Source: a virus
Length of the DNA: 32,658 nucleotides
Virus record (IMG/VR): IMGVR_UViG_3300025472_000013
Location: 1-32,658 of that record
Direction: 5' to 3' (one strand)
Part shown: positions 5,125 through 31,266 of the stretch, in pieces
How positions within the stretch are numbered: position 1 is the first letter of the stretch
Layout of the letters: each line of letters starts with the position of its first letter
The notes under the pieces: model-generated
Told to the model about the DNA's origin: nothing
The model's input: the letters and a program-made list of their open reading frames with translations, nothing else
The model's database searches: none
Made by a program: the position numbers and the translations under genes

Positions 5125-5243
5125 ATTTACCTTTACATTTTTTATCTTTGTAGTATAATTACCTCAATATCTTTCTTACTCTCCTATTAGAATTGATATT
5201 ATTTTTGGCGGTAAAAACCCAAAATTTCTATGAGAAATAAATT

Positions 5244-11865: not shown

Positions 11866-11870
11866 TTTAA

Positions 11871-12047: not shown

Positions 12048-12049
12048 TT

Positions 12050-14309: not shown

Positions 14310-14431
14310 GTTTTTTACCAAAAAAATTATTAAAATAATTAATTTTTTGTGGTAAAAACCACTAAAAGACAACGGAAATTCCGTCTTATTGATACAGTTT
14401 TTCAAAGGAAAAAAAACTGTTTTGAATAAAT
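14310..14431 (-). promoter_or_regulatory. Structured leader element, copy 2 (fibre module)
   Basis: This gap on the late strand holds several inverted repeats: ACAGTTTTT/AAAAACTGT (14394-14420), ACGGAA/TTCCGT (14372-14384) and GTGGT/ACCAC with an AAAA loop (14349-14362). The plus-strand decamer GACAACGGAA (14368-14377) and the adjoining small hairpin recur before the capsid gene (29847-29878) in the same order. The repeat of the same arrangement in two leaders suggests a cis-acting element such as a late promoter, RNA stability element or protein-binding site. In the transcribed direction no hairpin is followed by a T-run, so it does not look like an intrinsic terminator. Confidence 0.55.
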
Positions 14432-15043
14432 TTAACCTAAAAATTTATAAAGAATTTTTACATTTGCGGGTTTTAAATGTTCGTATAAACATTGTATTAA
14501 ATTAACTCCGGCTCCCAATGTAAATGGCAACGTTAAAGGAAATACATTTGATGGTTTTGGCAAATCTAAAAATACTATTATAATTGTAAATCTAGATGTT
14601 TTTCCAGTTCCTAAAATAAAAGGAAGTGTAAAAGGCAAAACCATATATTTATCGCCATGTTCAATAGCAATATTATAACCGAAAAATCTTGCTAAATCTA
14701 TCCAATCTTTTTCAGTAGCTATATTCATTTTGGCAAATTTAGCAACACATTGCAATTGTCGTTGTGTTATTGATACTGTATTTGAAAAACAATCATCTGG
14801 AATACCTAAAGCGTTTTCCCATTCTTCAATAAGATTATTTGTTTTACTTATATTATATTCTTGTGATAATTCATATAAAATAGATTGATCTCTCCCAAAT
14901 TCAACCGCTAAAGCGCGCATCAATTTATTAAAATTAGAATTAAAAATATCTTTCGCATTAAATGCTTGACCTAAAGGTAAATAAGAAGCCATTACTTTTG
15001 TATTAGTATTTAAATTATTTGGTATAAAAGTATTTTTAATCAT
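14432..15043 (-). CDS. Mu gp48-like baseplate or tail protein (YmfQ/DUF2313 type)
   Basis: The 203-residue length, the position directly after the gp47-like gene, and an N-terminal helix set with YLPLGQAFNA and EWENALGIPDDC fit the Mu gp48/YmfQ family, whose members join the baseplate wedge to fibres. ITQRQLQCVAKF and DWIDLARFFGYN are typical middle motifs. The C-terminal part has an internal duplication, LPFTLPFILGTG and LPLTLPFTLGAG, about 35 residues apart. Ribosome site is weak. Confidence 0.75.
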   Translation of the reverse strand: MIKNTFIPNNLNTNTKVMASYLPLGQAFNAKDIFNSNFNKLMRALAVEFGRDQSILYELSQEYNISKTNNLIEEWENALGIPDDCFSNTVSITQRQLQCVAKFAKMNIATEKDWIDLARFFGYNIAIEHGDKYMVLPFTLPFILGTGKTSRFTIIIVFLDLPKPSNVFPLTLPFTLGAGVNLIQCLYEHLKPANVKILYKFLG

Positions 15044-15059
15044 AATTATCTATTATAAA

Positions 15060-16394
15060 TTATGGATATGTAGGTCGTCCATTTAATACTGCTAATTGAC
15101 CTGTACCAATAATAATATCTCCTATTGGAGAACTTAAAGTAAAACTGCTCACTTTTTCACCATTTAACGGATTTATAGTTTGATAAATAGCACTTTCATA
15201 AGCATATTGCGGGAAATTTTCTCCCACCTCCGCTTTTTCTCCAAAAACTTGTTGTAAACTATTATAAATAGCATTTTGCATAGATTCATCATTAGGAGTT
15301 AATGTAGTAAAAGTAAATGTAACAGGAATAGGAGTAGGAGCAGAAACTATAATATCAGCTGGATCAGTATTAGCTGGTTTAATGCCCGTATTATAATCGA
15401 TAATTTGTTTTTTAATAGTAGTAACTTGTAAAGGTGAAGGAATAGCACTAAAACCATTATTATCAAGAACGGTAAAATATATAGTGACTTGTCCAACATT
15501 TGGTGTTATATCAAATATCCAAATTTTTAATACATAATTATTTTGTTTAATAAATGATTCTATTGATGAATCGTTAAATAACGAAAAAGGATGTTGATAA
15601 GCAATTAAATATCTTTGACGATAACTAGCATCACTTTCCGCATTTGTACCGCCAATTAAACCATTGGCAGTAACATGTGCAACGGAATTAACGCCGGCGA
15701 TTGTTGTACTAAAAGATAACGCTGCGCCATTACTTAAATTCGTTACTTCTCCCGTGGAATTACAAATAATTTCAGCAATAGCATTAGTTGTTATTCCTAT
15801 TATTACACCTGTTGCTGGACTTGCCGGAGTTCCTGTTATTGAATAAGAAAAATGAGTATCATCAATAACAAGTACAGTCGCGGTTATATTATATTCTATT
15901 TGAACAGCCCCAGAAATTGTTACGCTATCACCTGATCCTAAATTATGGGCGCTATATGTAGTAACTGTCGCTATTGAACTATCGCGAATAATGCTAGAAA
16001 TGTTAATTGTTCTCTGTGTTATTGTTACATCATCTTGTCCTTGATATATTATTCCCGTTGAATTTTGTAAAACAATATTAGATGCAGCAATAGTTATTCC
16101 GGCATTACCAGTTATAGATATATATCCAGTAGAAGCTTGCGCGGGATTGAATGTAATATTTTTTAATGTCCCCCAACGTTGTGCATATTCACCGTCGGCT
16201 GTATTTGGGAATAATTCTTTTTGCAAATTTTGCTGATTTACATTTAAATCATAACTGGCGCCACCATAACCCACGCAAATAGCGGAAATAGCAGAATTTC
16301 TAATAAATGGATCAGCTGTTGGCAATTCTGTTTGAACATCTGTTTTTATTCGGTCAATGACTTCTTGTCTGTTTGCTGGATATGTGATTGGCAT
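15060..16394 (-). CDS. Baseplate J-like wedge protein (Mu gp47) with inserted module B
   Basis: Both ends match the baseplate J / Mu gp47 family: an N-terminal MPITYPANRQEVIDRIKTDVQTELP, a GEYAQRWGTLKNI stretch (about 68-80), SDASYRQRYLIAYQHP (about 253-270) and a C-terminal part ending in LAVLNGRP. Between them, residues about 130-200 hold an extra beta module with TTYSAHNLGSGDSVTISGA, YN, IDDTHFSYSITGTPASPATG, also present in the tail-terminator candidate at 24182. The protein should form the wedge ring of the baseplate. ATG overlaps the previous gene's stop (TAATG). Confidence 0.85.
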   Translation of the reverse strand: MPITYPANRQEVIDRIKTDVQTELPTADPFIRNSAISAICVGYGGASYDLNVNQQNLQKELFPNTADGEYAQRWGTLKNITFNPAQASTGYISITGNAGITIAASNIVLQNSTGIIYQGQDDVTITQRTINISSIIRDSSIATVTTYSAHNLGSGDSVTISGAVQIEYNITATVLVIDDTHFSYSITGTPASPATGVIIGITTNAIAEIICNSTGEVTNLSNGAALSFSTTIAGVNSVAHVTANGLIGGTNAESDASYRQRYLIAYQHPFSLFNDSSIESFIKQNNYVLKIWIFDITPNVGQVTIYFTVLDNNGFSAIPSPLQVTTIKKQIIDYNTGIKPANTDPADIIVSAPTPIPVTFTFTTLTPNDESMQNAIYNSLQQVFGEKAEVGENFPQYAYESAIYQTINPLNGEKVSSFTLSSPIGDIIIGTGQLAVLNGRPTYP

Positions 16395-16843
16395 TAGTTA
16401 ATCTCCAAAGTATTATTCCAAAGAATATAAGAATTTGAATATATAATATTTAATCCTTTGTAAATTTTTACATTTAAAATCAATGTGTTATTTAAATAAC
16501 TGGTCGTAACTTCAATACGATTAGCATATTGGTCATCAATTAACCATTGCAAACAATCGTAAGCATATGTTTTTGCATTATTAAGCGTATTATTGTTTTT
16601 TCTAGCTTGTGATAATAGCCATAATTTTGATCCGATTTGATAATTAATATAATCGCCTACTAAATTACCCCACCAACCACGCCTAGTTGCCGGTGCTGGC
16701 ATTTCGCTTGCTTCTGCGCGTTTATCAACATAAACGGACATTAATAATGCCGTATCTAAACCTTCAGTTAATACAAAATCTCCATTTGAAAATGAAAAAT
16801 CATAATAATCAGCGGAATTATTAAAATGTATATCAACAGCCAT
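16394..16843 (-). CDS. Mu gp46-like baseplate protein
   Basis: Its 149 residues follow the gp46 pattern: an N-terminal D-F-x-NGDFVLTEGLDTALLMSVYVDKRA, then a WWGNLVG motif (about 57-63), GSKLWLL and a C-terminal strand set. The family belongs to the baseplate wedge, related to T4 gp25 in position. It lies between gp45- and gp47-like genes, exactly as in Mu. Confidence 0.85.
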   Translation of the reverse strand: MAVDIHFNNSADYYDFSFSNGDFVLTEGLDTALLMSVYVDKRAEASEMPAPATRRGWWGNLVGDYINYQIGSKLWLLSQARKNNNTLNNAKTYAYDCLQWLIDDQYANRIEVTTSYLNNTLILNVKIYKGLNIIYSNSYILWNNTLEIN

Positions 16844-16845
16844 AT

Positions 16846-17448
16846 TTATGCACTAGTATTATTACTAGATCCTCCGGTTATTGTTCCTGTATTTCCACCG
16901 ACTGTAACTTCGTCACCTTTTCTTGCAATAGCTTCACCACCTGCGCCAAGATCAACCTTAGCATTAGTTTTAAATGTATTTCCAATTTGTTCAATATCAG
17001 CACTTATTGTCACTTTATTAGCATTTATATTTAAATTTCCCGTTGTTGTGATATTTATATCACTTGCCGCAGTTATAATCACTTTATTTTTAGAAGAAAT
17101 TTCAATATCGCCATTTGCGAGAAATTTCACATAACTTCCTATTGCTGGACTTCCAAAAACAACTTCTCCAGATTTTAAATTTTTAAATCTTTCTTTAGCG
17201 GCATAAGGAATTACCATTAAATTTTCTTCTTGACCGCTAAGATTAAAAGATAATCCTAAAGTATTGGACGGGGCATTTGCGCTTATCCCATACGGATAAA
17301 GCGTTTGTGAATATGTAGTTTTACCATAATACGTAATTTGCGCATTAGAATAATCGCCAGAATCTTGGCCAGATAACGATACATAAACTTTTTTAATATA
17401 ATTTGAAACTCGATTATGTATTTTATGAAATTGAGGTTTTATATTCAT
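16846..17448 (-). CDS. Baseplate spike protein (Mu gp45 / gpV type)
   Basis: The 200-residue protein has an N-terminal OB-like part (KVYVSLSGQDSGDYSNAQI... and MVIPYAAKERFKNLKSGEVVFG) followed by a beta-helical region of regular strands (NGDIEISSKNKVIITAASDI, then NITTTGNLNINANKVTI) and a Gly-rich end. This is the architecture of the central membrane-piercing spike. The C-terminal tip has no obvious HxH iron site. Position between gp44- and gp46-like genes supports the call. Confidence 0.85.
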   Translation of the reverse strand: MNIKPQFHKIHNRVSNYIKKVYVSLSGQDSGDYSNAQITYYGKTTYSQTLYPYGISANAPSNTLGLSFNLSGQEENLMVIPYAAKERFKNLKSGEVVFGSPAIGSYVKFLANGDIEISSKNKVIITAASDINITTTGNLNINANKVTISADIEQIGNTFKTNAKVDLGAGGEAIARKGDEVTVGGNTGTITGGSSNNTSA

Positions 17449-17450
17449 AA

Positions 17451-18659
17451 TTAATTTTCTCCCTCAGTATCATTTTCAATATCACTGTTATCTTCAGATT
17501 CTTGCTCTTGATAATCATCAGCAATTTTTTTGCTTTTTTTATCTTTTTTAGTTTTCTTTTGTGTTTGAACTTTAAAAGCATCAGGAGTTGTCAAAACTAA
17601 TTTAGTTTTTGTTCCGCCGTCCAAATCCATTATAAATTCTGTTGATAAGATTAACAAATTAGCATAAACATCATTTACAGAATCATTGACATTTAATAAC
17701 ATATTTGGACGCCAAATTTCACCATTAGTATTTTTAAATCCTTGCATGATTAAAGAATAAGAAAAACCATTAGCTTTTCTTACATTTTTTTCCCAATCCG
17801 CCCTATCCTGTCTTGATTGTTGATCTTCATGTGTAGTATCTGAAATAAAATTAAATATACGAACAACTCTTATTTCACTATCAGTTGATGTTGCTGTTGT
17901 ATATGTTTCACTTTCGACAGGTGGTTGTTTTAATTGGTTAAAATCAGTAACAACACCTGACGCTGATGAATTTGTTTGTGATATTAATATATATTTATTA
18001 AATCTTTTACTATCATCAACACTCATATCAACCGATAAAACGCCATTTTTATTAGCATTAACATTAATATTGATAAAATCTCTTACAACATCATCATGCG
18101 CACGTGTATATACAATATTTCCGCTACCATCAGTAGTTAAAATTACTTGTCGTTTTTTTGCATATTTTTCTAAAAAATCAAATACAGTCTCACCAACTTC
18201 AGCAGCAATAACATCATTAGCAGAAAATATAGATAAATTATCAACTTCAACAGTTACATTAATATTATTTAATCCATATAATGATAATACTTTTTTAGTA
18301 ATGTCTATTATTGAAATTGGAGTGCTAAAATTTAATTTTGCAGGTAAAGTATTATCAATTACATCACATGTTTTATCGCGCCCGCTTATTGATATGCTAT
18401 GAGATTGATAATCAAAATGTGTATCAATTTTATTAACAAATCCTGTAATAATGGCATTTCCATAAATCAAAATTCGACATTCATCGCCGCGCTTAATCGG
18501 GAAAGTTCCAGATTGTGGATAACTAACATCACAAGTAAATTCATTGCTTAAACTTTCCATAGAAATGCTAGCGCTTCCATTTAGCAAGCCTTGATATTGC
18601 ACGCCTTTTACTTCTAAAATAAAAGGATCTATATTTGCTGAAGAATTAAATATTGCCAT
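17451..18659 (-). CDS. Baseplate hub protein (Mu gp44 / gpD type)
   Basis: I use ATG 18659 (MAIFNSSANIDPF...; 402 residues), because CGGAGAATTAAGATG is an ideal ribosome site and the longer form would overlap its neighbour. The body has GDECRILIYGNAIITGFVN and ISISGRDKTCDVIDNT, followed by GETVFDFLEKYAKKRQVIL, all typical of hub proteins of the gp27 type. The C-terminus is a highly charged Lys/Glu/Asp tail (about 370-402), an unusual extension. It should form the hub ring under the tube and hold the spike. Confidence 0.85.
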   Translation of the reverse strand: MAIFNSSANIDPFILEVKGVQYQGLLNGSASISMESLSNEFTCDVSYPQSGTFPIKRGDECRILIYGNAIITGFVNKIDTHFDYQSHSISISGRDKTCDVIDNTLPAKLNFSTPISIIDITKKVLSLYGLNNINVTVEVDNLSIFSANDVIAAEVGETVFDFLEKYAKKRQVILTTDGSGNIVYTRAHDDVVRDFININVNANKNGVLSVDMSVDDSKRFNKYILISQTNSSASGVVTDFNQLKQPPVESETYTTATSTDSEIRVVRIFNFISDTTHEDQQSRQDRADWEKNVRKANGFSYSLIMQGFKNTNGEIWRPNMLLNVNDSVNDVYANLLILSTEFIMDLDGGTKTKLVLTTPDAFKVQTQKKTKKDKKSKKIADDYQEQESEDNSDIENDTEGEN

Positions 18660-18660
18660 C

Positions 18661-19860
18661 TTAATTCTCCGTAACCATATTAATATTGCCATTAATTACA
18701 GAAACATCCTTAAGAGAATTTAATCTTACAATTTCGCTTTCATAATCAAAATTAGCATAATATTTATACAATAATACTGTTAAAGGAGCTTGCAATACAT
18801 CGACTTGAACAACTTTATTCGTATCTACTCTAACAGAATTAAGATATTGTTTTGTAGCGGTTCTTAATCTTTCAAAAGTTCTTAATAAAATACTTGGCAA
18901 ATTATTATTGCTAAGAAAATATTGATATCTAGTTTCTAAATCGTTTACTATATAATCCAATTCGTTAGTATCGTCATATGTTATCATACAAGCATTCTGA
19001 TACATGTTTATTAATAATGCGCCATTTGAAGTGCTATTTATCACTTGTGCGTTATTTATTTCTTCATCACTTACCAATGTATTATAATCAATATATCTAT
19101 CATCAGAACCAAATTCATATACGCGCACGCACAAAGCATAAGATTGCTCAAAAGTCGTTCCAATATCGTTATAATCATTAATCAATCCGGTTATTGCTGC
19201 GCCTAATAAAGTTGGATCTTGAACATTGGCATAAACATTTTTTAAATAATTAGTACTGCTAATTGAAAAATCATTCAATGATGAAGTAGTAATATTGCTA
19301 GACGCCGTTATAGCATTTTTTAAAGTGTCATTTAAGGTTATGCATTTAGTGGCGGAATCATTAATGTTTTCTGGGTAATTGATTGTATATTGTGAAGAGA
19401 CATTATTATTTAAATCTTTTATTAATGATGTCGCCAAACTAGTAACAGTTGAAATAGTCGTGCCAATTGAGGAAGGGAAAATACCTAATAAACTTTCTTC
19501 AAAATTTATATCAAATTTAGCCATTCCCAATTCGGTTGTAGAATGATCAATAGTAAATCCAGTACATATTACTGTAACCATTCCGTAAAAAGGATGAATT
19601 AAAATTCCCGTTCCTTTTATACGTAATGCAAGAGCTAAAGCATCTCTTCGAATATCATAATCATCACCAGCAACAATTGCTTTCATCGAAAAACTACGTA
19701 ATTTTTGCCCTAATTCTTCGGTGTATGAATATGTTTTAAATGGGTATAAATGAGTGGTGGTCATCTTCCCTGTTTGCGTAGAATCACTTTCATACAGGAA
19801 TTGAATCCCATTGAAAGATGCTTCATATAAACCATTTAAATAATCTTGTAATTGTGCCAT
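18661..19860 (-). CDS. Mu gp43-like protein (DNA circularisation N-terminal domain)
   Basis: The first half matches the DNA-circularisation-protein N-terminal family of Mu-like phages: LNGLYEASFNGIQFLYESDS, HLYPFKTYSYTEELGQK, then RDALALALRIKGTGILIHPFYG. Despite the name, the family is found in tail and baseplate modules and probably joins the tube to the hub. The second half is helical and Asn-rich. It sits between tape measure and hub genes, as expected. Confidence 0.82.
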   Translation of the reverse strand: MAQLQDYLNGLYEASFNGIQFLYESDSTQTGKMTTTHLYPFKTYSYTEELGQKLRSFSMKAIVAGDDYDIRRDALALALRIKGTGILIHPFYGMVTVICTGFTIDHSTTELGMAKFDINFEESLLGIFPSSIGTTISTVTSLATSLIKDLNNNVSSQYTINYPENINDSATKCITLNDTLKNAITASSNITTSSLNDFSISSTNYLKNVYANVQDPTLLGAAITGLINDYNDIGTTFEQSYALCVRVYEFGSDDRYIDYNTLVSDEEINNAQVINSTSNGALLINMYQNACMITYDDTNELDYIVNDLETRYQYFLSNNNLPSILLRTFERLRTATKQYLNSVRVDTNKVVQVDVLQAPLTVLLYKYYANFDYESEIVRLNSLKDVSVINGNINMVTEN

Positions 19861-19863
19861 TTT

Positions 19864-21243
19864 TTATCTCGATGGAGCCATGTACGCGCCACGATTCAAA
19901 GAGCTAACTTTTGTTGATGCATCAGATGATGATACTTTCCCAACAATGCCTTTAGGATCGTTAATATTTAAATTAACCGTACTTGTTGCATTAACATTAT
20001 GTGTTTGCGCGATTCCCTTAGCTCCCATTGGCGTTATAGAAGTTTTTGGAGATTCTTTACCAGCAGGTGTTTCAGTAAACATTTTGTGATATACCCACCC
20101 AGCAGCTTTGACTACTTTACTACCAATAATTTTATACCAAAATTCGGCTATTTTTTTAATTATTTCCCATATTGCATTACAAAAATCCCTAAACGGTTTT
20201 AATTGTTTATAAGCTTTATAAATTCCAAATCCTATAGCTGCTATTCCGACTACTATCAATCCAATGGGACTAAAAATAGCAGCAAATACACCTAATAATA
20301 ATCCGCCAATATATAATATTGGTGCCATTACTGCCGCTATTGCTAAAAATATAGCTACGTATTTAACTAAAGTCGCATGATGCCCAACAAAATCTCTAAA
20401 AGTATCTTCTGCTTTAGATAAAGTTGCTCTAAAACTATCTACCGCTGCCTTTGCATCAGTAGTACCCGAAATAGATTCTCCTATATCTTCAGCAAATAAC
20501 TGGAAAATATGATGGACTTTTGTTAAAGATTCTTCCATAGTATCAGTAGCTTTATTTTTAGATACTCGCATTAATGCTTCATCTAATAAACTAACTCCAA
20601 CTTTCCCTCTCACAAATGCTTTATAAGCATTTTCTCCCGATATCCCTGCTTGTTCTCCCATTTTTCTAATTTCAACACTTAATGCCGGAATAGTTCTTAA
20701 TAATCTCTGAGCAGACATAGGATCAATAAAACCGCCTTTATTTTTTTTGGCACGCATTTCTGCTCGAATAATTGTATTAGAAACCGCTTCAAATCCTGCG
20801 CTTGTTCCTTCTGCAATTTCAGCAAACATTTTGGTTTGCTGATTTGCTTTTTCAACGCTATATCCAAATCCCAACAAAGCCATAGTTGTTTTTCCCAACT
20901 GATCTAACGGGACTTCTGTCTCTTTAAATGTTTTTCTTATGCCTTCCAAGGCTTGATTTGCTGTTGTTGCCGATCCGGTGGTAAGTAATAATCTTTTATG
21001 TAATTCATCAAAATCATTTACTTGCTTGAAGATATACGCTCCTCCTGCTAAAATTGGCGCAGTTACGCGTATAGCTAAACTCTTACTTAAACTTTTCATT
21101 TTAGCGCCAAATTTCCCTATTTTAGAAGTTGTTCTTTCCAACCCTCTTTCAATTTCACTAAAACTTTTTTCTAATTTTTTGAATGTAGGACTAAAATCAT
21201 CAAATGCTTTAATCGCTATACCAACATCATAATTTCCAGCCAT
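19864..21243 (-). CDS. Tail tape measure protein, 459 residues
   Basis: The N-terminal 70 residues form charged heptads (FDDFSPTFKKLEKSFSEIE...), followed by a typical tape-measure core and a strongly hydrophobic double segment at about 293-345 that includes AIFLAIAAVMAPILYIGG. The C-terminus is Thr/Asn-rich. It starts one base after the stop of the frameshifted chaperone frame. Tape measures fix tail length at roughly 1.5 angstrom per residue, so about 70 nm is expected (inference). It is short for a myovirus. Confidence 0.88.
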   Translation of the reverse strand: MAGNYDVGIAIKAFDDFSPTFKKLEKSFSEIERGLERTTSKIGKFGAKMKSLSKSLAIRVTAPILAGGAYIFKQVNDFDELHKRLLLTTGSATTANQALEGIRKTFKETEVPLDQLGKTTMALLGFGYSVEKANQQTKMFAEIAEGTSAGFEAVSNTIIRAEMRAKKNKGGFIDPMSAQRLLRTIPALSVEIRKMGEQAGISGENAYKAFVRGKVGVSLLDEALMRVSKNKATDTMEESLTKVHHIFQLFAEDIGESISGTTDAKAAVDSFRATLSKAEDTFRDFVGHHATLVKYVAIFLAIAAVMAPILYIGGLLLGVFAAIFSPIGLIVVGIAAIGFGIYKAYKQLKPFRDFCNAIWEIIKKIAEFWYKIIGSKVVKAAGWVYHKMFTETPAGKESPKTSITPMGAKGIAQTHNVNATSTVNLNINDPKGIVGKVSSSDASTKVSSLNRGAYMAPSR

Positions 21244-21244
21244 A

Positions 21245-21918
21245 TTAGTGTCTCTGTTTTTCTAAACGCGCCATTTCTTTATTATATTCATCAGTAATTT
21301 GCTTAGCTCTTTCTTGCCATTCTAAAATCTCACTAATGGGCATATTAATAATATCTTGATAAGTAATAGCCCCTTTATAAAATCTCATCAATTCAGCACT
21401 TAAAAGCCCAATATTATCTTTGAAATTAGGTTCGCTAAAAGATATTAGGGCTTCAAAAAATTTGCGATATATTCTCCCATCAACCGATTAAATTCTTTAT
21501 AACCAATAAATTCAAAATGGCTTTGAGTTATTGATATTTGTCCATCAAGCAAACAGATATTTTTTTCGGTTAATAATTTAATAAATTTATCGCGGAATTT
21601 ATCCATATCAATAGATTTGCTCATGAACAAAATATTTATAATATCTTGAGCTTTCCATGGTTCATCTGCTTGATTTTCAAGTTGTTTTTGCTCTTCTGGT
21701 TTTTTAGAATTATCTTTATCATCTTGTTTTTTATTAGAAAATTCTAAAGCACCCTCTTTTAGAGCGCGCATAACGTCTTGGGAAATCACAGGCGCATAAT
21801 GAGAAATCATTGAAGGAGCTTTTAAAGTTAAACTATTGGTTTGAACAGTAATACCTTGTGTGTGATAGCTGATTTCATCTTCACAAGTAAAAATAAATTC
21901 TTTATTTGGTTTAAGCAT
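21245..21918 (-). CDS. Frameshifted tail assembly chaperone (long form, -1 shift)
   Basis: A second frame without its own good start continues from the end of the tail chaperone gene to a TAA at 21245-21247, one base before the tape measure ATG. A -1 slip on A AAT TTT (minus strand, 21463 to 21457) joins the two frames into a protein of about 224 residues. The added 70 residues include EALISFSEPNFKDN, AELMRFYKGAITYQDIINMP and a charged helix (EWQERAKQITDEYNKE). Programmed -1 shifts at this place are known for lambda G/GT and P2 E/E' chaperones, which coat the tape measure during tail assembly. Confidence 0.8.
21445..21918 (-). CDS. Tail assembly chaperone (short form)
   Basis: I start at ATG 21918 (MLKPNKEFIF...), preceded by GTAGGAGTTAATAAAATG; an earlier start would overlap the tube gene. 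The 157-residue protein has a beta-strand N-terminus, a charged Lys/Asp/Glu-rich linker (about 62-85) and a helical C-terminus. Size and location between tube and tape measure genes identify it as the short chaperone, made when ribosomes do not shift at the slippery site near its end. Confidence 0.8.
   Translation of the reverse strand: MLKPNKEFIFTCEDEISYHTQGITVQTNSLTLKAPSMISHYAPVISQDVMRALKEGALEFSNKKQDDKDNSKKPEEQKQLENQADEPWKAQDIINILFMSKSIDMDKFRDKFIKLLTEKNICLLDGQISITQSHFEFIGYKEFNRLMGEYIANFLKP
21457..21463 (-). other. -1 programmed frameshift site A AAT TTT
   Basis: Read on the minus strand the zero-frame codons are GCA AAT TTT TTG, giving the X XXY YYZ heptamer A AAT TTT. It lies four codons before the zero-frame stop at 21445-21447 and at the point where the second frame is open. 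A further T run (six T in all) adds slipperiness. I did not find an obvious strong pseudoknot just downstream. Confidence 0.78.
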
Positions 21919-21929
21919 TTTATTAACTC

Positions 21930-22334
21930 CTACACTGCGGCATCGCTTGCGCATTCACAATCGATTTTACCGTCGGCGCCAAGCGTTACTTCATAATTAT
22001 TATTAATTGATAAATGATTGAAACTACGAGTAAAATAAATACTCTGATCAGTTTGGCCACTTAAACTCGCGGCATTATTATTACCACCTGCTTTCCATGA
22101 TCTTGCTAATGCGACATTATCAACAGTAGGGAAAATACTAAATTTCAAAGTAGAAAATTTACTTTCAGCGTTATCAATCCAAACTGTTTGCACCGCGCCG
22201 CCACCCAACGATTGAGTTTTAGTTTGTTGTTCGCCAAATCCTTCCGTATATGTAACAGAATTTGGAATAACGGGCACAACTTGATTATTTATTACAAGCG
22301 TAGGAGTCGATAAAACTTTTGTGCTTATTGCCAT
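21930..22334 (-). CDS. Tail tube protein (Mu gpM type)
   Basis: At 134 residues and directly after the sheath gene, it fits the contractile-tail tube family. Visible features are VVPVIPNSVTYTEGFGEQQT, then QTVWIDNAESKFSTLKFSIFP and a strand-rich end EVTLGADGKIDCECASD. Hexamers of this protein stack to form the DNA channel inside the sheath. The ribosome site is AAAGAGGTAAATAAACATG. Confidence 0.83.
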   Translation of the reverse strand: MAISTKVLSTPTLVINNQVVPVIPNSVTYTEGFGEQQTKTQSLGGGAVQTVWIDNAESKFSTLKFSIFPTVDNVALARSWKAGGNNNAASLSGQTDQSIYFTRSFNHLSINNNYEVTLGADGKIDCECASDAAV

Positions 22335-22357
22335 GTTTATTTACCTCTTTTTAATCA

Positions 22358-24166
22358 TTATTGGTTAAAATTAAATCCGATTTGCATTTCTGCATAAATC
22401 TCACGCAATTGAGTAACTATCGGGACAATCATTGTTACGGTTGCCATTCCTGTTGCGATATCAACAGTTACAGTTTTATTTGCTTTAAAATAAGCTAAAG
22501 CGTCTTCACCCGCTTGAGTTAATACATAATTAGCGCTCGCCAATTGGGAATAAAGAGTATCAAAATAAGCACTGATTAAAGCGGCGTTAGCCATATTCTC
22601 GCGGATAATATCGCCAGCAGTTAAACGACATTGAGCAAATTTAGCGCGTACATTGTTGTAAAAATATTCGCGAATTTGACTTTCTGTCTCGACATATTCC
22701 AAATATTTGAAAGTGACATCGGCATTACCAGCAGAATCATTTTTATAAGTAGTAACTGTTTCGCCAAAAATAATTTCATCGTTAGTAGGATTATTGCCTA
22801 ATACAAAACCACCGGCAGTTTTTAAATCATCCATTTCATCATCAGTCCATTCATTGCTATTATCTACAAGTGGTAAATTAACAACTGGAGTATTAAAAAA
22901 TGGTAAACTTGCAATTGCGGGACCACCTAAAGCATCTAAACCACGCGCACTTGTATTATAAGAAGATAAATTTGAATTTTGTGTTAAACGCAATGCATTA
23001 ATAGCGCCAATTTGAGAAGCAATTACATAATCTAATTCAACAATTGCCGAGCCTTTTAAATTTGATGCAGTAATTTTTTTATTACAGTGAATAGCGATAT
23101 TATGATCATTTAAAGCGTTCAAAATTGTAATTAAATTAACAGCGGTATCTGTTTTACTTAAAACACCAATACCATCCATAACTTTATTATTAACATTCCA
23201 TCGTGGATCTAATAAATCTGTTAATACGCTTAAATCCCAAGATGATGGATAAATAATCGTTTGATAACGTAATTGTGCTATTGGAGTAAATAAAGTCGTT
23301 AAAATTGGATTAGTAGCACCTCCAGTCATAGCAGTAATAGTTGCTAAATAATTGGAAATAGAACTAGTATAAGCAATGCTAATGAAATTGCCTTCTGTGC
23401 CTTTATTAATAGCGGTTAAAGCTAAAACATTAGCAGTAGCATGTACAGTCCAGAGATCATGTAAAGTATGTCCTGTAGTATGTCCAAAAGTAATAGATAC
23501 GCCATTAGAAAGAGTTTGTGATAAACCTGTAATTGCTACTCCAGTTGTCCAAGTAGAACCATTATCATCTGACCATTCAAAAGTATCTGGTGTATCAACT
23601 GCATCTATTTTAATTATATATATTTTATTTGATGTCGCTGTATATGTACCTGAAACCGTTAAATCATCTAATCCTGAACCAGTAAATATTGGACTACTTA
23701 AACTTGTTGGTGCAGTTGCGATAACTGGACTTGTAGTATCTGCATTAATTAATGCGGCTACAGCAATTGCAATATTTCCAATTGTTTCTGAGACTGTTAC
23801 AGGGACAGTATAAGTATTATTTTTACTTGATCCCACTATTACATTAATAGTGCCTGCAGAAGTTGGCGAAGTAAAAACTATTGAACCCACAGCAGGTTGT
23901 CCAGAAACATTATCTGTTAATGCTATAGCATCAAGTCTACTATCATTATTTATTAATTTAGCGGATCTAATCATTGCTGCAATCATGGAATTACGACCAA
24001 ATAAAGTATCCCATGAAGCATCATTTAAAATATTTTGATATAATTGTCCGCTTGTAGCTGTTCCAGTAGTCATTTGCCCAACAAATAACATTTTTTGTGG
24101 TTGATTAGTCACAGGCTGTTGAGCTGATAAAATATTTATAGTAGTTTTTGGTAATCTTATTGTCAT
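22358..24166 (-). CDS. Tail sheath protein with inserted module A
   Basis: The 602-residue protein has sheath hallmarks: an N-terminal QKMLFVGQMTTGTAT, SAKLINNDSRLDAIAL, then LTAINKGTEGNFISI, RYQTIIYPSSWDLSVLTDLLD, and a C-terminal half with VETESQIREYFYNNVRAKFAQ. The inserted module (about 157-246) splits the usual sheath protrusion domain between SPVIATAP and VLALTAINKG. It has the same signature as in two other virion genes: KIDAVDTPDTFEWSDDNGSTW, LSNGVSITF, TTGHTLHDLW. The sheath contracts to drive the tube into the host. The ribosome site is AAAAGAGGATTAAAAAATG. Confidence 0.87.
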   Translation of the reverse strand: MTIRLPKTTINILSAQQPVTNQPQKMLFVGQMTTGTATSGQLYQNILNDASWDTLFGRNSMIAAMIRSAKLINNDSRLDAIALTDNVSGQPAVGSIVFTSPTSAGTINVIVGSSKNNTYTVPVTVSETIGNIAIAVAALINADTTSPVIATAPTSLSSPIFTGSGLDDLTVSGTYTATSNKIYIIKIDAVDTPDTFEWSDDNGSTWTTGVAITGLSQTLSNGVSITFGHTTGHTLHDLWTVHATANVLALTAINKGTEGNFISIAYTSSISNYLATITAMTGGATNPILTTLFTPIAQLRYQTIIYPSSWDLSVLTDLLDPRWNVNNKVMDGIGVLSKTDTAVNLITILNALNDHNIAIHCNKKITASNLKGSAIVELDYVIASQIGAINALRLTQNSNLSSYNTSARGLDALGGPAIASLPFFNTPVVNLPLVDNSNEWTDDEMDDLKTAGGFVLGNNPTNDEIIFGETVTTYKNDSAGNADVTFKYLEYVETESQIREYFYNNVRAKFAQCRLTAGDIIRENMANAALISAYFDTLYSQLASANYVLTQAGEDALAYFKANKTVTVDIATGMATVTMIVPIVTQLREIYAEMQIGFNFNQ

Positions 24167-24181
24167 TTTTTAATCCTCTTT

Positions 24182-25267
24182 TTAAGTGGTTAAAGGCACA
24201 TCATCTAAATTGGTATTTGTTTGCATAACATTCGTTTCAAAATCATTTAAAAATCCAAAATTCAAATCTCTAAACGCTACGCTCGTATCTTCATCAACGG
24301 TATCTTCATAAATTACGTCATAAATAACTTCGAATTTAAATTCGTGGACATAATAAGCATATGAATAAACATAAGGAGAATGCCCGGTAGTAATGCATCC
24401 AAAAGAAGTTTGATCGTTGTAAGGAGAAACAAATTTATAATTTAAAATTGTTTTAAATATAAGTTGATTTACATAGTCCATTTCGTCTCTTATCGACATT
24501 GCTCCTAATTCACTGGAACATGGAGCAGCTACATAAACGCTAAAAGGTGCAATTACTCTTTGTCGATAATCTTGTCCACTAACGCGTGAATAAGTAGCAT
24601 CTGATTGTGTAAATCTATCTTTCGAAGTAGTTACATCACCTAAAACAACCCACATCCAGAATTTATTAATAGTTTGTTTTGTATAACTTTCAATTATCCT
24701 GTCAATAGAAACGGCGCCAGAAATTCGGGCATTGCATTGTATTGTAATTGTTCCCTGCGCTGGACTTTCGGGCGTACTAGTAATTGGATAAGTAAAAGTA
24801 GTATCATCAATTCTGGTTATTACATGTGAACCGTTATAACCGGCGGCATAATTACAAAGCGTGTAAATATGCGTGCCTGTTGCGGGAGTAACGGGGTTTC
24901 CCGTGACTTCGAATTCGAAAGTACGTCTATTTGGTTGGTGAATAAAAGTATGCGTGCCATTATATGCGGCTTGTGTTGCGCCAATTATATCGACTGTAGT
25001 AGTATAATTATCGGTAAAATCATGATTGCTAGCGGTAATAGCTGTAGCTACATTATCAATTTGCGTTAAACTGGTTATTGTTATAGGTGTTAATGCTCCG
25101 TTGATATAAACAATATCTCCTGTTATTAATCCATGCGGGGTAGTTGTCACACATGTAACAATACCCGCAGAATATGAAAGCGAAGTAACGGCTACCGTAT
25201 CACTAAATAAATTAGTATATCTCGGTATTACATTTCTTAACTGTGTTACTATATCGGCGGCTTTCAT
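24182..25267 (-). CDS. Tail terminator candidate with two inserted beta repeats (module B)
   Basis: Position just upstream of the sheath gene fits a tail terminator (Mu gp37 position). The native parts appear to be residues 1-25 (MKAADIVTQLRNVIPRYTNLF) and about 178-361, which includes SELGAMSIRDEMDYV and a strand-rich end (HEFKFEVIYDVIYED). Between them sit two copies of a beta module: TTTPHGLITGDIVYINGA...AYNGTHTF...TFEFEVTGNPVTPATG (about 26-135), then a shorter GYNGSHVITRIDDTTFTYPI repeat (about 143-177). The gene overlaps its upstream neighbour (ATGA). Confidence 0.6.
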   Translation of the reverse strand: MKAADIVTQLRNVIPRYTNLFSDTVAVTSLSYSAGIVTCVTTTPHGLITGDIVYINGALTPITITSLTQIDNVATAITASNHDFTDNYTTTVDIIGATQAAYNGTHTFIHQPNRRTFEFEVTGNPVTPATGTHIYTLCNYAAGYNGSHVITRIDDTTFTYPITSTPESPAQGTITIQCNARISGAVSIDRIIESYTKQTINKFWMWVVLGDVTTSKDRFTQSDATYSRVSGQDYRQRVIAPFSVYVAAPCSSELGAMSIRDEMDYVNQLIFKTILNYKFVSPYNDQTSFGCITTGHSPYVYSYAYYVHEFKFEVIYDVIYEDTVDEDTSVAFRDLNFGFLNDFETNVMQTNTNLDDVPLTT

Positions 25268-25791
25268 TTGTTTTTCACTGATTGTTGAAATGCTTGTTGT
25301 ATTCTATTTATAAGTTTTGTTCTGTTTTCTTTGTAGGATCTACTTATAAATGGACGTGGCGCTATTTTTTTAGAACCATTACCCGTCATTGCTATTAAAT
25401 CTTTATATTCTAAATATTGTGCGTAATCACATCCCCAACGATTTTGATCTACACCAAAATTTAATTGTTCTGTTCCTGTAACTTTAAAATCTATAGAATT
25501 TCTTAATTTTCCAGTCCATTTTGCAGGAGCTTCGCCAGCAGCAGAGGCAACATGTCCTCGTGATTGTTTTAAAACATTTGATGTAATTCCAGATTTTTTA
25601 AATTTAGATTGTCCTTTTCTTGTTAAATAAATTCGCCCGTGTTTTGGTTCATCAATATATTTTTTCGCATCAGCAACCAAATCTTTGCCAACTTCGTAAA
25701 AAGCTGTTCTTATCGCTTTAGGCGTAACCTGCTTAAGCGCTTTCGCTTTTAATACGACTTCATTTACATTATTTTTTATTGATAAAGTCAT
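25264..25791 (-). CDS. HK97 gp10-like tail completion protein
   Basis: I start at ATG 25791 (MTLSIKNNVNEVV..., 175 residues), four bases after the previous stop; a GTG at 25827 would overlap the head-closure gene. Features of the family are AFYEVGKDLVADAKKYI, then HVASAAGEAPAKWTGKLRNSI, YAQYLEYKD and the Pro-rich IAPRPFISRSY. It should act at the head-tail junction, as a minor tail or tail-completion protein. Confidence 0.75.
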   Translation of the reverse strand: MTLSIKNNVNEVVLKAKALKQVTPKAIRTAFYEVGKDLVADAKKYIDEPKHGRIYLTRKGQSKFKKSGITSNVLKQSRGHVASAAGEAPAKWTGKLRNSIDFKVTGTEQLNFGVDQNRWGCDYAQYLEYKDLIAMTGNGSKKIAPRPFISRSYKENRTKLINRIQQAFQQSVKNK

Positions 25792-25795
25792 AAAA

Positions 25796-26500
25796 TTATG
25801 CGTAGTTTGCTGGGATACCTTGATCACCAGTTAAGGTTGTTAATAAATTCAAATAACGTCCTTCTTCGTCTAATATTTCAGCCGATAAAATGTCATAAAT
25901 ATTTTGAATGTTCATAAATTGGTTTTGATAAAATATCCAATCCTGAGAACTGATTTTTATTCCTGCGGTTGCGACAATATCCCAATAAGTATTTAAAGTG
26001 TGTCCGGTAACATGACCGAAAATAACCGAAATTCCATTTGATAATAATTGCGCCGCGCCAGTAATTGATATTCCAGATGCAATCCAAGTTACGCCGCCAT
26101 CGCTAGACCATTTGAAAGTATCTACCGTGCCAACAGAATCAATTTGTACTCTGTAAATGAGTTTTGATGTAAATGTATAAGCACCAGAAGTGGTTAAATC
26201 GTTTAAATTAGTACTTATTCCGCTAAAAACAGGAGTATTTACTAATGATGTTGGCGGGATATTTCTAATTATAAATCTATGAGTAATAACTCTTTCTGTA
26301 TTGGATTGATCAAATATAGACACACCTTTTGGAGTATCTATCAATGCCCAACATGCTAATTTAGCAGTAAAAGTTTCTGTGAAATTTAAATCACTCCCGA
26401 CAGGATGTTTAATATCGCGATCATAAATAAAAATTCTGCTATTCATTGATCCGATATCAGGACGTCTATATTTTTTAACTGTAGTAATTAATTCAGCCAT
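25796..26500 (-). CDS. Head-tail joining (head-closure) protein with inserted module A
   Basis: I start at ATG 26500 (MAELITTVKKYRRP...), three bases after the previous stop, over an upstream GTG. Both ends match SPP1 gp16-type head-closure proteins: GSMNSRIFIYDR, CWALIDTPKG, VITHRFIIR and, after the insert, ISSQDWIFYQNQFMNIQNIYDI and GRYLNLLTTL. Counting from the start used, residues about 89-179 are the inserted module, with VQIDSVGTVDTFKWSSDGGVTW, LLSNGISVIF and VTGHTLNTYW. The insertion falls in a loop between core strands. It should close the portal after packaging and dock the tail. Confidence 0.78.
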   Translation of the reverse strand: MAELITTVKKYRRPDIGSMNSRIFIYDRDIKHPVGSDLNFTETFTAKLACWALIDTPKGVSIFDQSNTERVITHRFIIRNIPPTSLVNTPVFSGISTNLNDLTTSGAYTFTSKLIYRVQIDSVGTVDTFKWSSDGGVTWIASGISITGAAQLLSNGISVIFGHVTGHTLNTYWDIVATAGIKISSQDWIFYQNQFMNIQNIYDILSAEILDEEGRYLNLLTTLTGDQGIPANYA

Positions 26501-26502
26501 TT

Positions 26503-27195
26503 CTACCACCCGTTAAAAATAGTGCCGCTAAATATTGAAGGTGCTTTATATCGATCATAAACATCTAAAATCATTTGCGGCAAAACACTAGTAGTATCTT
26601 TCATCATTGACGCTGTATCATTTCCTCTATTCTCATAAATAAAAGTACAGTGTTGTAATAAAGCCATTTTCAAATCAGGATATTGCGCTAAAAAATCACT
26701 AGGATTTGCCGACATTCCTGCTGTAAATTCTATATTTATTGCATTATCTTCTTGTTTTATATTATTAAATGGAAATTGATATCCTTGTAATAATAGAATT
26801 TGTGCGTAATAGGATTTATCAGCTATTTGGTAAATAGTCGGGTCAACAGTGACATATAATCCTGTTGTAACGTCAATATATTGAAATTTTTCTAGTGAAA
26901 CGAAATATCCTTTTCGTAATTCAAAAGCATTTGCATCAAAATTATCTCTAGTTGTTTGCCATTGGGTATTAATCAATGATAAATTCATATATTCTTCAGC
27001 ATATCTAATCGCAGAAGCTATAATTAAATTTAAATATGATGCCTGTTCCAATAACACATCAACGCGAATTTGATTTTGCATATCTTGCGCAGTAATAGGT
27101 AAAACCGGTAATGTCCCGATTCTCTTATATTTAAAAGAATCGGATTCATTAACGAATTTACTTTGCTGATAACTTGCAAGATATGTACTTTGCAT
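26503..27195 (-). CDS. Head-tail connector (HK97 gp6-like adaptor)
   Basis: The 230-residue protein follows the gp6-like adaptor layout: LLEQASYLNLIIASAIRYAEEYMN helices, LINTQWQTTRD, a beta stretch around YIDVTTGLYV, then a C-terminal helix with DLKMALLQHCTFIYENRG. Rings of this protein sit beneath the portal. It comes after a short structural gene and just before the head-closure gene, the usual order. Confidence 0.78.
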   Translation of the reverse strand: MQSTYLASYQQSKFVNESDSFKYKRIGTLPVLPITAQDMQNQIRVDVLLEQASYLNLIIASAIRYAEEYMNLSLINTQWQTTRDNFDANAFELRKGYFVSLEKFQYIDVTTGLYVTVDPTIYQIADKSYYAQILLLQGYQFPFNNIKQEDNAINIEFTAGMSANPSDFLAQYPDLKMALLQHCTFIYENRGNDTASMMKDTTSVLPQMILDVYDRYKAPSIFSGTIFNGW

Positions 27196-27197
27196 CG

Positions 27198-27698
27198 CTA
27201 TACCAAGCTCAAAACAACACTGTTATTTAAAAATATTTCCCATTGTGTTGCTGATTTATAACCAATAGTTAAACGATCATTTACTGCATTAAATGTTGCA
27301 GTATTATTTGTCCCATCAAAAGTTACTCCGGCCGCACATGTAAAAACAACATCACCAGATGTTCTGCTAACAATATTTATATCGCAAATACCATATGGAA
27401 CAGGAGCGGCTAAAGTCATTGCTGCCAATCCAGTGCCGGCCGCTATCGCAGCTTTACCAGCAACAGCAATGGCGCCATTTGCACTATATGCAGTTACTAC
27501 TTGATTTAAAATTACGGTGCCATTACCAGAACCAGATAAAACAGCATTAATCTGTGTACCTGTATATGCAACGCCAGCAAATTCACCTGTACCCGTAGCA
27601 CTTATGACAAATTGATTATCATCTGGCGTGCCGCTTGTTGAAGCAGAAGGCGATCTAAACCCATTCAAAACATCGGATTCATTAGGATAAAAAGCCAT
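27198..27698 (-). CDS. 166-residue Ala/Gly-rich virion protein
   Basis: The sequence is beta-rich and dominated by Ala, Gly, Thr and Asn. The N-terminus is FYPNESDVLNGFRS, and strands such as DINIVSRTSGDVVFTCAAGV and RLTIGYKSATQWEIFLNNSV follow. It looks like a decoration or head-fibre protein, possibly trimeric. The ribosome site AGAGGGTATTAATATG is strong. No specific family is recognised. Confidence 0.6.
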   Translation of the reverse strand: MAFYPNESDVLNGFRSPSASTSGTPDDNQFVISATGTGEFAGVAYTGTQINAVLSGSGNGTVILNQVVTAYSANGAIAVAGKAAIAAGTGLAAMTLAAPVPYGICDINIVSRTSGDVVFTCAAGVTFDGTNNTATFNAVNDRLTIGYKSATQWEIFLNNSVVLSLV

Positions 27699-27718
27699 AT
27701 TAATACCCTCTATTTAAT

Positions 27719-27952
27719 TTAATTTTTATAATTTAATTTGACCATTTTGTTTTCAAAATCACTTTTAAATTCATTTTTAACATCATCTGAATTAATGATT
27801 TTCGCAACTTTATTAAACGTCAAATAATCGGCAATAAATTTTTCAACCATATACTTATTACCTTGTTGATAATTTTTATTGCGAAAAGAAAATGATGTAA
27901 GCATTAAAACCCACATCATTTCTATTTTTTTTCTGCATTTATCACAAGACAT
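27719..27952 (-). CDS. 77-residue non-structural-looking gene in head operon
   Basis: This short basic, Lys/Asn-rich protein starts MSCDKCRKKIEMMW and has one CxxC pair, then a helical body (VEKFIADYLTFNKVAKI). Its composition is unlike the Gly/Ala/Thr-rich virion proteins around it and closer to the small early genes. It might be a passenger (moron) gene or a small head accessory. The start lies just after the stop of the decoration gene. Confidence 0.5.
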   Translation of the reverse strand: MSCDKCRKKIEMMWVLMLTSFSFRNKNYQQGNKYMVEKFIADYLTFNKVAKIINSDDVKNEFKSDFENKMVKLNYKN

Positions 27953-27956
27953 GCGT

Positions 27957-28433
27957 TTATTTATCCTTTGGAGTTACATTGTGATGTGGATCGCTTAATA
28001 TCGCTACAGCACTTAATACACCGCCGCTTGACGTTCCTGTTGAAACAAAACTTAAGCGAACATATCTATGTTTATTTAAAACACCAATTCGCGCTGTCTT
28101 ATTATCATCAGGAGCGGTAAAAGTAGCATCAGCATAAGGATTTACTGTGCCTGCTATTGGGCTTGGCGGTGTGGTTGGATCAGTAATAGGAATAGTTCCT
28201 ATTAGAAAATCTGCTGGGGTAGCAATTGGACTAGCCAATCCTGAATCGTCACTTTCGTAAACTACTGGAACAAAAGTTCCATCAGTAATAGTTCCTGAAA
28301 GTATTACAAATTCGACTGATTCGTACCCTAAAGTATCGATAATCGCACCATTAGTAGTCGTATTAGTACCAATAGTTTGAATAGTTAAAGCTGGATAAGT
28401 TTTAACCTTATTATGTAAATCTAATTGAGCCAT
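27957..28433 (-). CDS. Head decoration-like protein
   Basis: The 158-residue protein directly follows the capsid gene and is beta-rich: GYESVEFVILSGTITDGTFVP, then ESDDSGL, a Pro-rich linker (about 85-97) and KTARIGVLNKHRYVRLSFVST. It resembles phage proteins I recall encoded next to capsid genes and thought to decorate or stabilise the shell. Strong ribosome site (AATAGGAGAAAAAAAATG). Confidence 0.6.
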   Translation of the reverse strand: MAQLDLHNKVKTYPALTIQTIGTNTTTNGAIIDTLGYESVEFVILSGTITDGTFVPVVYESDDSGLASPIATPADFLIGTIPITDPTTPPSPIAGTVNPYADATFTAPDDNKTARIGVLNKHRYVRLSFVSTGTSSGGVLSAVAILSDPHHNVTPKDK

Positions 28434-28446
28434 TTTTTTTCTCCTA

Positions 28447-29790
28447 TTAACCGATTAAACATTTAACTAAAGCTTCGCCCATTACTACCTTGCCGCCTAA
28501 GCGTCTGATAAAGGTAAATTTGACTTTGCCAGGGAAAGTTAATTCATCACGAATCATATACATTTGCATACGATCAACGATGGTATAACCACGCTTTAAA
28601 TCGCCCATAACGATAGGAGTTGCGCCCGATCCGATGTTTGGCATATCAGGAGCTATAATGTATTTCTCGCCGCAAATAGTGGCTGGTTGACCGGCTGATA
28701 ACTCGCCTTTATCGAACATGTAACGACCTTGACCGTCTTTTAATTCCCAAATAGTCAAAAAGGTAAATTTGTTCATAATGAAAGTTTTTTCATATGCTGG
28801 CTGACCGTAAATGTTCCATTTAATAGATTTCATCATTTCTTTCAAATCGTCCGCAGTAATTACGCCAGTTTTTTTCGAGTTATAAACAATTACATTTGGA
28901 TTAACTAAAATACCTTCGACTTGATTGACGCCAGTACCATTGATAAATCCATTACCTTCTGCTTGTGCAAAAGATTCTGTTACATCGGCACTAATTAAAG
29001 ATGGCATATCAAAAGGACTATCTTGTAGGTCTTCTAAAGTAACGACTGATTGCACAGAAAGACGTTTCATATGAATGTCTTCACGGGCATATAAAGAATT
29101 AGATACGCCAGTAGTTACATCCGCGGCTTCATATTCCCAATATGATGTAGTCAAAACATTACGAACTGGGAATTGAATTACATTTGAGTATGTCTGCATG
29201 ACATTGGCATATTGACGAATCGGTGAATATTCAGTACCACGCTTGAATATTTGCATGGTCATTTCTGGTGCAATTAATAAACCGCCAGAATCGGCTTGAT
29301 CGGTACGTAAATACTTGGTATCAATTACTTGACGACCATATTGCTTAGCGATTGGATTGTACTTATAGCCATAAATTTGAACATCGTCTTTCAAAGCCAT
29401 ATGCTTCATAAATATAGGATCGCTTTGTTTTAAAACATTTTGATCGCGACATTTAATCAATTTTTCAAAAGATTCTTGTAAATCTTTATTTAATACTTCT
29501 TCGCCATCGGCAGTTTTAACACCACCTTTGCTAGAAGCGAATCGTTCAAAAGCCTTGATGACTTTATCTTGTTCTTCTTGTTTTGATTTTTGTTCTGCAA
29601 GTTTTAATTGCAAATCATTATTTGCTTTTAGACAGACATCTAAGTCTTTAGAGACTTTGTCCATCAATTCTTTTTTAGAAGCTTCACTATCTCTAAATGT
29701 TTTTTGCATCTCTCGCGCTATTTCAGCAAGATTTGAATCCATTTGTTGCAATTCAGTTTTAGTTGCTTCTTGTTTAATTTCTTCGGACAT
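28447..29790 (-). CDS. HK97-type major capsid protein
   Basis: I start at ATG 29790 (MSEEIKQEATKTEL..., 447 residues), after GAGGATAATC; a GTG at 29802 is less likely. Residues 1-90 form a charged coiled coil, the delta scaffolding domain removed by the prohead protease. The rest is the HK97 fold, with SGGLLIAPEMTMQIFKRGTEYSPIRQYANV, then VVTLEDLQDSPFDMPSLI, GQPATICGEKYIIAPDMPNI and VMGDLKRGYTIVDRM. The family forms the icosahedral shell. It has a long structured leader shared in part with the fibre module. Confidence 0.93.
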   Translation of the reverse strand: MSEEIKQEATKTELQQMDSNLAEIAREMQKTFRDSEASKKELMDKVSKDLDVCLKANNDLQLKLAEQKSKQEEQDKVIKAFERFASSKGGVKTADGEEVLNKDLQESFEKLIKCRDQNVLKQSDPIFMKHMALKDDVQIYGYKYNPIAKQYGRQVIDTKYLRTDQADSGGLLIAPEMTMQIFKRGTEYSPIRQYANVMQTYSNVIQFPVRNVLTTSYWEYEAADVTTGVSNSLYAREDIHMKRLSVQSVVTLEDLQDSPFDMPSLISADVTESFAQAEGNGFINGTGVNQVEGILVNPNVIVYNSKKTGVITADDLKEMMKSIKWNIYGQPAYEKTFIMNKFTFLTIWELKDGQGRYMFDKGELSAGQPATICGEKYIIAPDMPNIGSGATPIVMGDLKRGYTIVDRMQMYMIRDELTFPGKVKFTFIRRLGGKVVMGEALVKCLIG

Positions 29791-29802
29791 GATTATCCTC
29801 AC

Positions 29803-29912
29803 ATAATGTTTAGTTGATAAAAAAATAAAATAAATACAATTTTTTTAATGGAAAACCATTTATGGAATGACAACGGAATGCCCGTTTGAATAAGATACGC
29901 GTAATTTACGCG
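29803..29912 (-). promoter_or_regulatory. Structured leader element, copy 1 (capsid gene)
   Basis: The gap between protease and capsid genes holds AATGG/CCATT with an AAAA loop (29847-29860), AACGG/CCGTT (29872-29886) overlapping the shared decamer GACAACGGAA (29869-29878), and a perfect ACGCGTAA/TTACGCGT repeat (29897-29913) that reaches the protease stop codon. Order and spacing of the hairpin and decamer match 14349-14377. In the late direction the shared sequence contains TTGTC(A), near a -35 hexamer, but no good -10 follows. An A/T-rich stretch then leads to GAGGATAATCATG. Confidence 0.55.
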
Positions 29913-31180: not shown

Positions 31181-31196
31181 TTTAGATTAAATAGCC

Positions 31197-31237
31197 ATAG
31201 GACATAACCTCTTGTTTTTATCTTGGTTATGTCCTAT
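31197..31237. promoter_or_regulatory. Perfect 13-bp inverted repeat in the 5' leader
   Basis: ATAGGACATAACC (31197-31209) and GGTTATGTCCTAT (31225-31237) are exact reverse complements with a 15-base T-rich loop. No T-run follows on either strand, so it is not a plain terminator. It lies just downstream of the predicted start site, so it may be an operator for a dimeric repressor or a leader hairpin controlling translation of the regulator. Confidence 0.7.
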
Positions 31238-31266
31238 AGAAATAAATATTTTAGGTAAAAATATAA

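Follow-up and report, generated by a model that had tools for sequence, protein, structure and literature searches.

A late-strand repeat ahead of the capsid and tail-fibre genes of an uncultured Mu/P2-like phage is a candidate phage-specific late-operon start

In the phages Mu and P2, one activator acting on repeated sites controls several late operons, with four sites in each phage (PMC4461284; PMC3931495). Specifically, the Mu late promoters Plys, PI, PP and Pmom are activated by C; two of the late promoters share a 10-bp match, and a T-stretch lies in the spacer (PMC4461284). The P2 late promoters PP, PO, PV and PF are activated by Ogr, for which the site is TGT-N12-ACA (PMC3931495). Here we describe an element of ~65 nt that occurs twice in the IMG/VR virus record IMGVR_UViG_3300025472_000013, a 32.7-kb fragment (termed the window, meaning all 32,658 nt) whose tail genes are Mu/P2-like and whose head genes are HK97-type. 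The element is a significant repeat on the late strand, it is placed ahead of gene starts, and syntenic phages carry an analogous genome-specific repeat. We put the probability at about 50% that it serves as a phage-specific late-operon start, composed of a promoter and an activator site.

The late genes of this phage are read from the minus strand, and the features of the element are given in that direction. Copy A lies in the gap at 14310-14431, a non-coding leader between a baseplate gene (14432-15043) and the tail gene that begins with the ATG at 14309. Copy B lies in the gap at 29803-29912, between the protease gene (29913-30986) and the major capsid gene (28447-29802), whose likely start is the ATG at 29790, with AGGA ahead of it, and not the GTG at 29802. 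Two further stretches of the late strand, 11866-12049 and 21244-21444, look like gaps but are coding, which leaves these two as the only large gaps without coding sequence in the structural region, in agreement with an initial annotation of this DNA. The sequences which that annotation had listed in both gaps were all found where it had placed them.

The shared part of the two copies spans ACGG to the T-run. In order, the element consists of a dyad RACGG-N5-CCGTT, then GTC, with a decamer inside this portion, a U4-loop hairpin TGGTTTT(TA)CCA, an A-run and a T-rich stretch. Copy B, ahead of the capsid gene, reads ACGCGTAAATTACGCGT-ATCTTATTCA-AACGGGCATTCCGTTGTC-ATTCCATA-AATGGTTTTCCATT-AAAAAAATTG...TTTTTTT...ATG, and copy A, ahead of the tail-fibre gene, reads ACAGTTTTTTTTCCTTTGAAAAACTGT-ATCAATAA-GACGGAATTTCCGTTGTC-TTTTA-GTGGTTTTTACCAC-AAAAAATT...TTTTTTT...ATG. 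The dyad (H2) is GACGG-AATTT-CCGTT at 14371-14385 in copy A, where it is paired in the minimum free energy (MFE) fold, and AACGG-GCATT-CCGTT at 29872-29886 in copy B, where it is given by the dyad scan and by folding. The decamer TTCCGTTGTC (GACAACGGAA on the plus strand) occupies 14368-14377 and 29869-29878. The small hairpin (H3) is GTGGT-TTTT-ACCAC at 14349-14362 and AATGG-TTTT-CCATT at 29847-29860; the initial annotation had given it an AAAA loop, which must be corrected to U4 because the element belongs on the minus strand. The A-run and T-rich leader follow at 14310-14348, up to the ATG at 14309, and, together with the AGGA ribosome site, at 29791-29846, up to the capsid ATG. In both gaps the element is preceded on its 5′ side by a further hairpin (H1), which the initial annotation did not include and which is found at 14394-14420 in gap A (ACAGTTTTT...AAAAACTGT, a sequence not kept in copy B) and at 29897-29913 in gap B (ACGCGTAAATTACGCGT, 7 bp, weakly terminator-like and adjoining the protease stop codon).

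GACAACGGAA occurs exactly twice in the window. Both copies fall within the dyad RACGG-N5-CCGTTGTC, which is free of mismatches only at these two sites and has 10 matches at up to three mismatches, with 2.85 expected. Two A/T-rich gaps might resemble each other by chance, and 488 of 2000 shuffled pairs do have some 10-mer in common, so the common 10-mer by itself is not significant. Against chance stands the full alignment. When gaps A and B are aligned locally with weighted scoring, their score is reached by only 1 of 2000 pairs after dinucleotide shuffling; among 4000 pairs of stretches drawn at random from the real late strand, 4 do as well. The two gaps are also reciprocal best matches in a scan of the whole 27-kb late strand. 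We regard coincidence as very improbable and the repeat as confirmed.

A partial third copy (copy C, GGTTTTTACCGCCAAAAAT), which lacks the decamer, is found on the same strand at 5201-5219 in the lysis region, 3′ of a terminator-like hairpin and ~80 nt ahead of the start of the open reading frame (ORF) at 4750-5124. The bare 10-mer from which this copy had been proposed is weak (5 matches at up to one mismatch, 2.5 expected). The match to gap A extends to GGTTTTTACCRCMAAAAAT, identical at 17 of 19 positions with 14342-14360, and none of 500 shuffles was as good, so that the partial copy is real. The bare 10-mers, of this copy and of the decamer, are weaker evidence than the initial annotation took them to be.

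Several features support a promoter: the late-strand position, the distance from the decamer's TTG to the likely ATG codons (~60 and ~80 nt in the two copies), the repetition before two operons, and the lack of a sigma-70 consensus. Upstream of the leader, TTGACA-N16-18-TATAAT at 9 or more of 12 positions has no match in gap A, and its sole match in gap B overlaps the start codon; the opposite-strand gene block of the window has TTGACT-N18-TAAATT, and that of a relative has TTGACA-N17-TAATAT. That the element is a promoter, which factor reads it and where its transcripts start are inferences. The element would be a late promoter that includes a binding site for a trans factor with sequence specificity; this factor is probably a phage activator and possibly a phage sigma factor or polymerase, and it would recognize the dyad and decamer (RACGG-N5-CCGTTGTC) and the T-rich block TGGTTTT(T)ACC. 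One such factor would switch on the capsid operon through copy B, the tail-fibre operon through copy A and perhaps, through the partial copy C, the lysis-end genes, and transcripts would start in the A/T-rich stretch and carry a short leader before the ATG. The dyad RACGG-N5-CCGTT could also be an operator, bound by a phage repressor or by another DNA-acting protein (in replication, packaging or recombination) and not part of a promoter, and for the dyad only position argues otherwise. The strand, the ATG spacing and the sites of relatives at three or four late-operon starts, described below, point to gene expression, which makes such a non-promoter site improbable.

Exact copies of the phage are present in two other IMG/VR data sets, and beyond these the nearest syntenic phages show 35-40% protein identity. 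Viral contig scans with capsid, baseplate, alignment and DNA-pattern queries yielded only contigs that are 99.98-100% identical or share ~30-44% protein identity, with no close relatives carrying divergent copies, and a genome contig scan found no such relatives either. A joint pattern of decamer and hairpin gave 47 matches, convincing only in the phage's own copies; a scan with GGTTTTTACCRCMAAAAA returned no relative except the phage's own contig (L005), and a blastn comparison of both gaps with phages produced nothing beyond insignificant, A/T-rich matches.

At late boundaries other than A and B, the syntenic relatives carry a repeated late-strand 20-mer, AATCATRGTTTTTNNNRTTG. Searching 2.9 million viral contigs for it located 72 stretches. 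In this phage group they stand at three boundaries only, ahead of the protease gene (62-63 nt from the ATG), a small gene preceding the sheath gene (52-53 nt) and a baseplate wedge gene (50 nt); the other matches are scattered by chance, mostly within genes of unrelated viruses. In one contig (G002), a related core, TCATAGTTTTTTCTA, occupies three of the four boundaries of this kind, among them that of the portal gene; the pre-sheath site of this contig has TGAC. The presence of genome-specific 20-mers at the late-operon starts of relatives favours a late promoter or regulator site as the role of the window element also. Most of these 20-mers cannot form a hairpin, and therefore the hairpin is not the common feature.

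The four bases that follow GTTTTT in the 20-mer, termed the address, vary between phages. AGGG, CACA, CCCG, AGTG and TCTA are found, and there are at least four address types. Addresses nearly always agree within a contig (AGGG at two sites in G001, CACA at two sites each in G006 and the near-identical G007, TCTA at three of four sites in G002), an agreement drawn from few multi-site contigs and thus few independent cases; G003, from the metagenome of G006 and G007, has CACA at one site. The strongest single observation is a change of address amid near-identical flanks at the baseplate boundary. The 20-mers of contigs L223 and L156 differ at four adjacent positions, although flanking identity is 99% upstream and 97% downstream. 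L201 and L240 likewise differ in address, with flanks 94% identical upstream and 100% downstream, and G001 and G006 differ in address at 95.3% DNA identity over 5.3 kb. The best explanation for an address that changes while its flanks stay, and that agrees across the sites of one genome, is that a specific trans factor changed alongside. We tentatively suggest that each phage has a private address read by one trans factor, with all starts switching together in lineages ~95% identical elsewhere. Jointly with this tentative proposal, and no more firmly, the window element might be a further, structurally elaborated version within a rapidly evolving and swappable late-transcription code.

At two of the boundaries, those of the baseplate and the protease, opposite-strand genes have their start codons within the 20-mer. 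These genes encode 159 and ~106 amino acids (L156 10131-10610, L158 3151-3630, L163 7528-7848). Because opposite-strand ATG codons sit inside it, the relatives' 20-mer may be a divergent promoter. The 159-residue protein at the baseplate boundary has a marginal match (E 0.016) to the window ORF 16846-17448. As separate observations, the baseplate boundary of G003 carries a moron-like cassette with DUF3440/PAPS reductase, ParB-like and SNF2 helicase genes (L158 5205-8869), and the relative contig G005 has a match to the DUF3800-VII RNA (L162 6567-6659; 37.4 bits, gathering threshold 36.2).

A number of results weigh against a late-operon start. Of the two observations that the initial annotation named as speaking against the element, one, its absence from the same boundaries in related phages, was made in the distant relatives. 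Syntenic relatives lack anything similar at the A and B boundaries, where their genes almost touch; the exception is one 73-nt gap at the A boundary (L068), which holds a terminator-like hairpin. Since these genes nearly abut, the element is not ancestral to the two boundaries. Conversely, the late-strand gaps of the window and of an overlapping contig (L003) hold no match to AATCATRGTTTTTNNNRTTG within three mismatches, and direct alignments of copies A and B with the 20-mer were not significant. Sequence homology is not supported, and consequently the equivalence of the window element and the 20-mer rests on position and behaviour. Furthermore, the -10 box is not fixed, as two offsets fit equally well in the A/T-rich sequence, and no homologue of Mor/C or Ogr was found in the genome fragments searched. 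Finally, gap A has strong RNA folding potential.

This last property bears on another explanation, in which two late mRNAs would carry a structured 5′ leader made up of the three hairpins, with a role in processing, stability, translation control or antitermination in cis, as with the HK022 put RNA. Gap A folds far better than its shuffles (z -6.0, 0 of 200), which makes an RNA-level role possible, and gap B does so modestly (z -2.2, 7 of 200). Both copies allow H1, H2 and H3 to be drawn in one order, pairing in H2 survives a G-U to A-U change, and H3 retains a 5-bp stem and a 4-nt loop despite its difference in sequence. Against such a leader, two copies carry too little covariation, H3 is outside the MFE structure of both whole leaders, and a good part of the gap A fold consists of A-U pairing with the leader. 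Moreover, the relatives' addresses AGGG, CACA and AGTG cannot form a hairpin like H3, and Rfam gives no match to the element, consistent with the initial annotation, which did not recognize it as a known RNA family. Among the roles proposed initially, the comparative evidence thus favours a late promoter or regulator site; an RNA element is less favoured, and we judge it unlikely, though it deserves to be kept in mind.

The hairpin H1 suggests a further alternative, that of an insulator. H1 would act as a weak terminator for the gene upstream and the remainder would be spacer, so that the gaps would mark the ends of operons and not their starts. In copy B, H1 is classed as terminator-like on either strand, a terminator-like hairpin precedes copy C, and another occupies the 73-nt gap of L068. 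H1 of copy A lacks a U-tract, however, and the conserved part lies downstream of H1, in a stretch with no GC-rich stem leading into a terminator-like U-tract. An insulator therefore seems a poor explanation of the repeat.

If the element is a late-operon start, late transcription in uncultured Mu/P2-like myophages would use a repeated, genome-specific start signal unlike the sites of Mu C and P2 Ogr, and such signals would be candidate phage-specific promoters. The different late-operon addresses of near-identical relatives are a wider and more interesting finding than the window element. These relatives would constitute a natural experiment on how an activator and all of its sites could change specificity together.

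The remaining late genes of the window include the sheath gene (22358-24166) and the baseplate wedge genes (16394-16843, 15060-16394 and the above-mentioned 14432-15043). A TTTTTTG slippery sequence lies at ~21440-21480 on the minus strand, near the end of ORF 21445-21954, and the open -1 frame after it reaches 21244; this arrangement looks like a tail chaperone frameshift of the P2 E/E′ type. A 120-nt stretch is 73% alike in two structural genes (13054-13173 and 26027-26146), and the protein of 12385-13314 resembles both the sheath segment of residues 153-247 and a segment of another head-tail protein. These likenesses probably reflect a repeated surface domain.

Contig L003, identical to the window across 4.2 kb, continues for a further 4.6 kb, in which portal and Mu F-like genes lie. 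An opposite-strand block encoding an AlpA-like regulator, a phospholipase-D nuclease and a TM2 protein (window 31267 to the end and L003 2724-5972) lies amid the late genes, with the Mu F-like gene on one side and the protease gene on the other; in the relative G006 an opposite-strand block lies directly ahead of the protease gene. A long, perfect-looking inverted repeat (CATAGGACATAACC...GGTTATGTCCTATAG, ~31190-31240) is situated just upstream of the AlpA-like gene (31267-31452), near the promoter-like TTGACT-N18-TAAATT. Elsewhere, a short run of GGTCTG/GGATCTG-type repeats (~1310-1366) occurs in the gap after ORF 1084-1272, and the only Rfam match in the window is a tRNA-Tyr. A full CsrA homologue is encoded at 897-1091 on the plus strand (NCBIfam NF002469, 104 bits, above cut-off), adjoined by a zinc-ribbon-like ORF of 52 amino acids (737-895). 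Regulation of the element by CsrA was considered and rejected, as the copy B dyad on the mRNA strand lacks GGA.

How the element compares with described RNA signals can be stated briefly. The HK022 put RNA is a phage leader of ~70 nt with two stem-loops, present in two copies (PMC9378689). It is located downstream of early promoters, unlike the window element, whose hairpins have 5-9 bp and are A/U-rich. In other phages, the nut sites of lambda (boxA-boxB) consist of a short linear box and then a small 5-bp hairpin. The window element is alike in having a box and a small hairpin, and differs in its U4 loop, which is not GNRA-like, and in its lack of a boxA consensus and of an Rfam match.

Among DNA sites, Mu and P2 provide the closest comparison. 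In Mu, PI lies before the protease gene and PP at the baseplate genes, which are the positions of the relatives' sites; the window copies instead precede the capsid and tail-fibre genes. The C site is a tetranucleotide repeat, TTAT-N6/7-ATAA, located just upstream of -35; this repeat is absent at the element in copies A, B and C, the sole match in gap B overlapping the ribosome site. The window, L003 and the relatives tested, all of them genome fragments, gave no match to PF08765 (Mor/C). Likewise, the P2 site TGT-N12-ACA is absent from copies A, B and C and from four tested sites of relatives, PF04606 (Ogr/Delta) gave nothing above cut-off in these fragmentary genomes, and the zinc-ribbon-like ORF 737-895 lacks the CX2CX22CX4C spacing of Ogr/Delta. 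Judged by its sequence, the window element is neither a Mu C site nor a P2 Ogr site. Its likeness to the late promoters of both phages is an analogy that rests on position and behaviour. Like Mu, the window phage appears to have Mu-like tail genes and several late operons whose starts are each marked by one repeated site, and, as in P2, one activator-type site would be repeated ahead of several of these operons. Copies A and B, together with the partial copy C, provide that repeated site.

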